Assembly (NCBI GenBank): GCA_031283725.1 | Contig: JAITBG010000157.1 | Coordinates: 1 to 36,809, forward strand | Direction: 5' to 3' | DNA: 36,809 nucleotides | Origin: Treponema sp. | GTDB taxonomy: Bacteria > Spirochaetota > Spirochaetia > Treponematales > Breznakiellaceae | Notes under the pieces: model-generated | Told to the model about the DNA's origin: nothing | The model's database searches: none | The model's input: only the letters and a program-made list of their open reading frames with translations | Shown here: one piece after another, positions 16,338-19,295 of the stretch | How the letters are laid out: every line of letters starts with the position of its first letter | Position numbering within the stretch: the stretch's first letter is position 1 | Position numbers and translations under genes: made by a program

Positions 16338-18110
16338 TCAGTTCCGCTCCCCAATTTCGTATACGCTCCGCGCAATCGGCATTCGCCGTCCCATTCCGAA
16401 AGCCCGAGGGCTTACCTTGAGCACCGGCGGGGCCTGGCGGCGTTTGAACTCCGCTCGGGCAACGGTGCGGATGATCCGGCTTACCAGTTCTTCCTCCCAG
16501 CCCTGTTTGACGATACCGTCTTTGGAGAGGTTTTCGAACAGGTAGAGCTTGAGGATCTCGTCTAATACTTCGTAGGGGGGGAGGCTGTCCTGGTCCTTCT
16601 GGTCCGGCCGTAGTTCCGCTGAGGGGGGCTTGGTAATGATTGCCTCGGGGATGATCGCCTTAGCGCCGGCTGCGAGGGAACGTTCGTTGATGCGCTTGCA
16701 GAGGGCGAATACTTCGATTTTGAACAGATCGCCGATGACCGCCAGGGCGCCGTTCATATCACCGTAAAGGGTACAGTATCCCATGGCGAGTTCGCTTTTG
16801 TTGCCCGTGGTGAGGAGCATGGAGTCAAACTTATTCGAATAGGCCATGAGCAGGGAGCCGCGGATACGGGCCTGGAGGTTTTCTTCCGCAATATCAAAGG
16901 GACGCTTCTCAAAGACCTCTTCCAGGGTGGAGAGGAAACTGGTGAATACCGGTTCTATGGGGAGCACTTCGTAACGGCAGCCTAAGTTTTCCGACAGCTC
17001 ACGGGCATCGTCCTTGGAGCCCTGGGAGGAAAAGCGGGAGGGCATGCTGAAGCAGACGATTTTGTCCTTGCCTATGGCCTTGACACCCAGATAGGCTACC
17101 AGCGCAGAATCAATGCCCCCGGAAAGGCCCAGGTGGGCCCGCTTAAAGCCGCACTTGACCATATAGTCCCGTATGCCCATCACCAAGCCTTCTTCCAGCA
17201 TATCCAGTTCGTACCGGGTCAAGCCCACCTTGAAAAAATTATCCGTACCGGTCTGGGCAGCAACTGTGGTGCTTCCGGCTGCCGCCTTCGTTCTTGGAGT
17301 CCTCAAGGCGTCCCCGGAATCCCAGGTAACGAGGTCCTCCGCAAAAGCTTTTGCGTCGAGCTGTACGGGGTAGTTTTTTACCGAAGCGGATGCGGCGGCT
17401 TCCGCGGTGGGCGCTACCACAAAAGAGCGGCCGTCGAAAAGGATAGAATCGTTGGCGCCCACCGCGTTTATGTAGACCAGGGGGATATTGCCCCGAATTG
17501 CTATGCGTTCCGCCAGCGCCCGGCGCACCTTGAGTTTGCCCGCCACATAGGGGGATGCGGAGGGTACGCAGAGAAGGCTGATCCCCTGGTCCAGCAGTTC
17601 CCGTACCGGGTCCCGGATATAACTGGTACCGGGTATGTCCGTTTCCCGCCATACATCTTCGCAGATCGCAAAGCCTATGCGTTCCCTCTTGTACTCAAAG
17701 GCGGACCATTCCCGGCTGGGCTCAAAGTTCCGGGCTTCGTCAAATACATCGTAGGTGGGGAGCAGGGTTTTTAACTGTTCAAAGACCAGCTTCCCGTTCA
17801 ACAGGATGCCGTATTCGTTAACCAGGGACTTGCCCCGGGAATAGGGGTTCCGGTTCACAAAGCCAAGCCCCACCGCAATGTCTGGGGGTAAATCCCGCTG
17901 GAGCATGTGCAGGGTGCGGATATTCATTTCCACAAAGCTGTCCTGATCCAGCAGGTCCATGGGGGGATACCCGCAGATCGCCAGTTCCGGAAACAGGATC
18001 AGATCGGCCTGTCGTTCCTCCCGGGCTCTTTTGGTAAAGGCCAATATTTTTTCCCGGTTCCCGAAAAAATCTCCGATGGTAGAATTAATCTGAGCTATTG
18101 AAATACGCAT
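16338..18110 (-). CDS. nadE: glutamine-dependent NAD+ synthetase (nitrilase + NAD synthase domains)
   Basis: N-terminal nitrilase fold (MRISIAQINSTIGDF, LFPELAICGYPPMDLL); C-terminal LGLSGGIDSALVAYLG and TTGNKSELAMGYCTLYGDMNG. Confidence 0.95.
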   Translation of the reverse strand: MRISIAQINSTIGDFFGNREKILAFTKRAREERQADLILFPELAICGYPPMDLLDQDSFVEMNIRTLHMLQRDLPPDIAVGLGFVNRNPYSRGKSLVNEYGILLNGKLVFEQLKTLLPTYDVFDEARNFEPSREWSAFEYKRERIGFAICEDVWRETDIPGTSYIRDPVRELLDQGISLLCVPSASPYVAGKLKVRRALAERIAIRGNIPLVYINAVGANDSILFDGRSFVVAPTAEAAASASVKNYPVQLDAKAFAEDLVTWDSGDALRTPRTKAAAGSTTVAAQTGTDNFFKVGLTRYELDMLEEGLVMGIRDYMVKCGFKRAHLGLSGGIDSALVAYLGVKAIGKDKIVCFSMPSRFSSQGSKDDARELSENLGCRYEVLPIEPVFTSFLSTLEEVFEKRPFDIAEENLQARIRGSLLMAYSNKFDSMLLTTGNKSELAMGYCTLYGDMNGALAVIGDLFKIEVFALCKRINERSLAAGAKAIIPEAIITKPPSAELRPDQKDQDSLPPYEVLDEILKLYLFENLSKDGIVKQGWEEELVSRIIRTVARAEFKRRQAPPVLKVSPRAFGMGRRMPIARSVYEIGERN

Positions 18111-18649: not shown

Positions 18650-18678
18650 TTGACTAAATAAATTTACAATGTTATAGT
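18650..18678 (+). promoter_or_regulatory. Sigma70-type promoter for the HTH-KAP protein gene
   Basis: TTGACT - 17 bp - TATAGT, 34 bp before the ATG; RBS AAGGAGAG. Confidence 0.65.
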
Positions 18679-18712
18679 TATATTATCAAACAATTTTAAG
18701 GAGAGTATCCAA

Positions 18713-19255
18713 ATGGCAAAAGCCGTCAAAACACCTGGGGAAGTGATAAAAGCCCAGGCAACCGCGTACAATCTTTCTATTACCCAGTTAGCTGAAGGAA
18801 TCAAGATCAGCCCTTCTGCAGCCCGTTTGTTAATCAACAACAAGCTGCGGATCAGCGTTCCCTTCGCACAGCGTCTTTCCAAATATTTCGGGAAAACTCC
18901 CGAATATTGGATTAATTTACAAACCGCTTTCGAGCTGAGCGAATTAGCTAAGGACAAGAAAAACGCTACGGTCCTTAAGTCAATTTCCAAAGCCGTAAAG
19001 GTGGCGGCGAAAGCTCCGGCAAAGAAAGTTGCCGCTAAGAAAGCTTCCAAAAAAACTGCCCCTAAGAAGGCTGCGGCTAAAAAGGCTCCGGCGAGGAAAG
19101 CTGCAGTTAAAAAGGCTGCTCCCAAGGCCAAGGCCCCGGTCAAAGCCAAGGCTCCCGTTAAAAGGCCGGTCAGAAAAACCGCGCCGAAGCCTGCTTCCAA
19201 GCCGGCAGCCCCGGCCCCGGTAGTGTCCTGGACTCCCTCGTCGGATAGTAATTAG
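18713..19255 (+). CDS. HigA/XRE-type HTH protein with histone H1-like Lys/Ala/Pro-rich C-terminal tail
   Basis: N-terminus TPGEVIKAQATAYNLSITQLAEGIKISPSAARLLINNKLRISVPFAQRLSKYFGKTPEYWINLQTAFEL (VapI/HigA-like); tail KKVAAKKASKKTAPKKAAAKKAPARKAAVKKAAPKAKAPVKAKAPVKRPVRKTAPKP. Confidence 0.92.
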   Translation: MAKAVKTPGEVIKAQATAYNLSITQLAEGIKISPSAARLLINNKLRISVPFAQRLSKYFGKTPEYWINLQTAFELSELAKDKKNATVLKSISKAVKVAAKAPAKKVAAKKASKKTAPKKAAAKKAPARKAAVKKAAPKAKAPVKAKAPVKRPVRKTAPKPASKPAAPAPVVSWTPSSDSN

Positions 19256-19271: not shown

Positions 19272-19295
19272 AACGCCGTTTTATGCGGTGTTTTT
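19272..19295 (+). terminator. Probable Rho-independent terminator after the HTH-KAP gene
   Basis: AACGCCG-loop-CGGTGTT (G-U wobble) followed by T-run. Confidence 0.6.

Follow-up and report, generated by a model that had tools for sequence, protein, structure and literature searches.

A toxin-free lineage of HigA-type proteins with a conserved basic tail in a family of spirochaetes

The window, that is, the whole stretch of 36,809 nucleotides analysed here, comes from a Treponema sp. assembly of 2.49 Mb in 231 contigs that is 79% complete. At positions 18713-19255 of its forward strand lies an ORF with an ATG start that encodes a HigA-type protein of 180 residues ending in a long tail. The gene is preceded on the same strand by a sigma-70-like promoter, TTGACT-17-TATAGT (18650-18678, found by motif scan and genus alignment), and by a Shine-Dalgarno-like AAGGAG read from the sequence at 18698-18703; it is followed by a terminator-like hairpin with a T-rich tail (19272-19292). 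The original prediction endowed the gene with a promoter and a terminator of its own. The promoter is present and kept in the genus, its elements TTGAC and TATAGTTA being nearly invariant when the five genus orthologues are aligned, while the terminator is upheld only in part: the hairpin folds with a z of -2.9 but stays at chance level in a simple scan. A palindromic auto-operator was sought in the genus promoter alignment and nothing convincing was found.

The neighbours of the gene encode an NAD synthetase and a GGDEF protein, and the small ORFs that adjoin it have no Pfam match. An antisense ORF (18664-19200, reverse strand) was discarded as a mirror of the biased tail, likewise without a Pfam match. 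An Rfam search of the window returned no match, and PADLOC gave a weak HTH match and nothing else. Conserved-neighbour clustering found no operon partner of the tailed gene that is conserved past close relatives. Two distinct subclades have the NAD synthetase gene (16338-18110 in the window) close to the tailed gene, each on a different side (also at loci L057, L058 and L137). Elsewhere in the window, between 1627 and 6390, ORFs of this gut spirochaete resemble a catechol meta-cleavage pathway (hydrolase, hydratase, acetaldehyde dehydrogenase, aldolase and extradiol dioxygenase), a pathway reported for T. primitia.

The N-terminal region was predicted to be a HigA/XRE-type domain, and the profile searches and structure comparisons agree. 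TIGR02607 (HigA) matches residues 6-79 with an E-value of 8.7e-16 and 57.5 bits (cut-off 47.7), PF01381 (HTH_3) matches residues 12-66, and a sequence search of crystal structures retrieved the HigA 2icp at 8e-11. In an AlphaFold2 model built on a 20-member alignment, the domain (residues 1-91, 18713..18985) has a core of six helices spanning residues 8-90, with a pLDDT of about 95, and its predicted recognition helix, placed by alignment and model, covers residues 34-41 (18812..18835). Foldseek comparison of this model with the PDB yielded 39 matches with E-values up to 0.001, which are HigA/YbaQ/GraA-type antitoxin structures.

Residues 92-180 (18986..19252) form a basic tail that the model leaves at low confidence and without secondary structure. 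The predicted Lys/Ala/Pro tail is thus present, but it starts nearer residue 92 than residue 85 and its last 15 residues or so are not basic: the dense K/A/P stretch runs to about residue 164 and gives way to a neutral end, APAPVVSWTPSSDSN. The histone H1-like profile HC2 (PF07382) scores 17.9 bits against this tail, under the family cut-off of 40. Among 82 distinct tailed relatives that were collected, the tail has a median length of 56 residues and a median net charge of +15. It is net positive in 81 of them, and each of the 82 has 40 consecutive residues with a charge of +0.2 or more per residue, the shortest tails being counted whole. In nearly all close pairs, the tails are less identical than the domains, and they can differ in length, as in one case of 50 versus 68 residues where the domains are 97% identical; the sequences diverge, and the K/A/P make-up and, mostly, the charge persist. 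Since the K and A codons are mixed and tandem repeats are weak, the idea that the tail is a repeat at the DNA level was rejected. AT-hook-like motifs, RGRP or RGRKP, occur 25 times where shuffling predicts 0.2, a count inflated by the relatedness of the tails, and are found in 21 of 70 tails (about 30%); the window protein itself has no motif of the RGRP type. Two end motifs recur among the tails (L035, L038, L159, L183, L184, L192): several from different subclades end in an ILIKK-like sequence such as NTILIKK or HVVLIKK, and others share KxPGAKxxRG near the end. One clade member, L190, is extended at its N-terminus by a segment rich in Pro, Ala and Glu and has hardly any tail at the C-terminus.

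A HigBA system consists of a HigA-type HTH protein and an adjacent HigB-like toxin gene, usually just upstream. The first is found here, both by TIGR02607 score and by fold; the second is not, and because the toxin is lacking the locus does not qualify as such a system. A HigB profile was built from the small ORF directly upstream of tail-less HigAs. It detected HigB near 67 of 80 tail-less HigA loci versus none of 81 tailed loci, some loci being duplicated under different identifiers (without identical proteins, the clade comes to 79 members, and 70 of these have tails). HigB was also absent from the nine loci of short clade members, one of which is cut by a contig end. At 19 further loci, it accompanied all six tail-less HigAs and none of the 13 family members. 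Twelve genomes with clade members were searched whole: the nine HigBs they contain all adjoin a tail-less HigA, and no clade member has one close by. HigB is missing altogether from seven of the 12, among which are two single-contig assemblies. A search for HigB with PF05015 in the genome of the window, which is 79% complete, gave no match at E<=1. Toxin families other than HigB were covered by the conserved-neighbour clustering and by Pfam searches of the window's neighbours. The absence of an adjacent HigB, noted from the window sequence, therefore holds for its flanks, for its genome and for the 81 tailed loci, and a linked toxin, which had been named beforehand as the observation that would overturn the proposal, was rejected after the searches beside clade members, at further loci and in whole genomes.

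A tree of the domain (123 rows, 101 columns, quick method) separates 78 tailed and short members from 45 classical HigAs by a single branch with an SH-aLRT of 97, which sets the lineage apart from working HigAs; the alignment behind the tree is short, and resolution is lacking at many of its inner forks. The 70 tailed members alone are rejected as a clade (p-AU 0.0017), a few tail-less members, toxin-free as well, being nested inside the tailed lineage. Homologues without the basic tail had also been named as a possible refutation. Some do exist, but their nested position makes secondary loss of the tail the simplest reading, with repeated gain as the alternative.

The lineage differs from classical HigAs at positions that contact DNA. 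In P. aeruginosa HigA, residues T40, D43 and R49 read bases through water (PMC6987408); by alignment they correspond to A36, L39 and L45 of the window protein. Position 36, an arginine in 86% of classical HigAs, is A, T or S in the tailed clade, position 45, an arginine in 93% of them, is occupied by mixed residues, and R38 has been gained in 78% of the clade. Clade-specific changes are seen at contact positions 36, 38 and 39 (and 45). E10 and F15, near-invariant in classical HigAs, have been lost, and a linker, LKxIxKAKKP, is kept across the clade.

An orthologue was found in all five other genomes of the genus that were searched, one of them a single contig of 4,059,867 bases, with 70-84% identity over the domain. 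Relatives that carry a name come from assemblies of Treponema and Spirochaetia, and we take this material to be largely from termite guts. Among 78 genomes of one spirochaete family that are at least 85% complete, 51 have a clade match (E up to 1e-23), most of these matches, not all, being tailed; in the survey of spirochaete homologues that had been proposed, the tail is kept in many genera. Across 392 genomes sampled from the whole class, nothing outside the family scored as high as the tailed proteins, and five outside-family matches with long open frames, together with one ordinary scorer, were set aside as tail-less HigAs of 97-113 residues with HigB nearby. Roughly 60 HigAs fetched from other phyla lack a long basic tail. 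A phage or plasmid origin was not retained: the matches listed carry HigA/YbaQ-type annotations at less than 60% identity and give no sign of recent transfer. We did not find a HigA-type HTH joined to a K/A/P tail described in the open literature, subscription journals lying outside that search.

The HC2 scan led to a second protein with the same type of tail, pyruvate phosphate dikinase (PPDK). Such a tail, of 25-205 residues rich in K/A/P or in GRP/RGRP, is found at 20 of 30 sampled loci, one per Treponematales genome (L259-L288; for example L259, G034:C1 at about 2,050,375-2,053,275), and the tailed PPDKs span several families of the order; the remaining ten end within 0-6 residues, without a tail. 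We found no description of K/A/P tails on PPDK in the open literature. In 2.0 Mb of two genomes comprising 1,794 ORFs, from regions partly chosen to include both tailed protein types, long dense tails occur on PPDK and on the HigA-fold protein only. The tail is thus rare, yet not exclusive to a DNA-binding protein and, since PPDK is a metabolic enzyme, its presence alone is no proof of DNA binding. This weakens the use of K/A/P tails as a chromatin signature, on which the original prediction had drawn. The window's genome also encodes two HU-like proteins without a long tail. A genome without a tailed HigA (G024) has a stand-alone HC2/H1-like ORF (L195:1462-2088, reverse strand; PF07382 at 79.7 bits, above the cut-off) that adjoins a gene reading like mnmE.

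The absence of HigB from all 81 tailed loci, the split in the tree and the preserved K/A/P charge together establish a HigA-derived lineage that has no toxin and preserves a basic tail, and this is well supported. What the protein does can be approached from its parts. DNA binding is likely because the fold is that of HigA, such binding is probably broad, and a nucleoid-associated or global regulatory role is plausible; we infer that the tail may contact DNA and that the protein may be abundant. Taken together, it is on balance probable that a former antitoxin fold combined with a basic tail makes a DNA-binding protein that binds the chromosome broadly and regulates it. An ancestral HigA antitoxin of the spirochaete family would have lost its HigB partner and retained the fold, its DNA-contact residues would have changed, and a disordered, strongly basic Lys/Ala/Pro tail would have been gained. 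The HTH would dock in the major groove with an altered, perhaps relaxed, sequence preference, the tail would bind the phosphate backbone or the AT-rich minor groove with little specificity, and the two together would provide broad binding and regulation. We count in favour of this explanation the fold, the 82 tails, the spread in the family, the missing HigB, the contact changes, the AT-hook-like motifs, the gene's own conserved promoter and its lack of a conserved operon partner, and against it the tailed PPDK, the lack of an AT-hook in the window protein, the two HU-like proteins and the tail-less members. It also counts against it that a third of the family genomes have no clade match, so the protein is no essential part of a core chromatin.

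The strongest competitor, which we nevertheless regard as unlikely, is an ordinary local regulator that acts through its HTH on its own promoter and on a small number of genes, the tail adding electrostatic affinity without any chromatin role. HigA proteins such as that of P. aeruginosa repress a few promoters beyond their own operon (PMC6987408), and the HTH is well conserved, with R38 nearly fixed in the clade. However, a long tail in 82 proteins of many genera exceeds the need of a small regulator, and the search for a conserved neighbour or target was negative. Distinctly more doubtful is the proposal that the tail is a general module for binding polyanions or for localisation (polyphosphate, RNA, granules), borne in the Treponematales by proteins of differing function, which would place the HigA-fold protein without making it a chromatin protein. 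The tails of PPDK speak for it, as does AlgP, whose similar K/A/P-type tail positions polyphosphate granules as well as binding DNA (PMC9239181); against it, the tail is here joined to a DNA-binding fold, the AT-hook-like motifs point to DNA, and long tails are otherwise rare in the sampled ORFs. We give equally little credence to a related idea, that H1/AT-hook-like tails are a targeting module shared within the Treponematales that would tether both the HigA-fold protein and PPDK to the nucleoid or to polyphosphate. An orphan antitoxin with an incidental tail, still active against a HigB-type toxin encoded elsewhere, would fit the TIGR02607 score above the HigA cut-off, but is very improbable given the seven of 12 clade genomes that lack HigB, the tail-less HigA adjoining each HigB found, and the loss of E10 and F15. 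That the tail arose by neutral expansion of repeats and serves no function is just as hard to credit: its length and sequence change fast and a few nested members have lost it, but its charge and composition are kept in 82 proteins of many genera, its codons are mixed and its DNA repeats weak, and its AT-hook-like motifs lie far above the expectation from composition.

The broad chromosome-binding reading would make the lineage an example of DNA-binding proteins arising from toxin-antitoxin debris. At the scale of a family, the lineage is a clean case of an antitoxin fold surviving the toxin and acquiring a tail like that of histones, and functional HigBA pairs, which occur in the same and in related genomes, serve as internal controls. 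The parallel tails of PPDK raise a testable question, namely what such tails bind in bacteria.

K/A/P tails are already known in bacteria on other folds, among them the histone H1-like HC2/HctB proteins (PF07382) and mycobacterial HU. Their composition resembles that of the window tail; the globular domain here has the HigA fold, not that of HU as in the tailed mycobacterial protein. CarD of Myxococcus and other bacterial AT-hook proteins combine a globular domain with AT-hook motifs, as does the part of the clade that bears AT-hook-like motifs; the fold differs, and the window protein lacks the motif. The HTH-first HigA antitoxins (TIGR02607; 2icp, 3trb, 4mct, 6jpi; GraA 6f8s; YbaQ 2eby) share the same fold, with clear homology in sequence over residues 6-80, and the tailed clade departs from them by having no HigB, other DNA-contact residues, the linker and the long basic tail. 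AlgP/AlgR3 and PhaF of Pseudomonas possess a similar disordered Lys/Ala/Pro C-terminal tail (PMC9239181), but their N-terminal domains are unrelated to the HigA fold, and the 154-residue KPAA array is both longer and more regular than the tail in the window. The window protein belongs to neither the AlgP nor the tailed HU family, but most likely works as they do.
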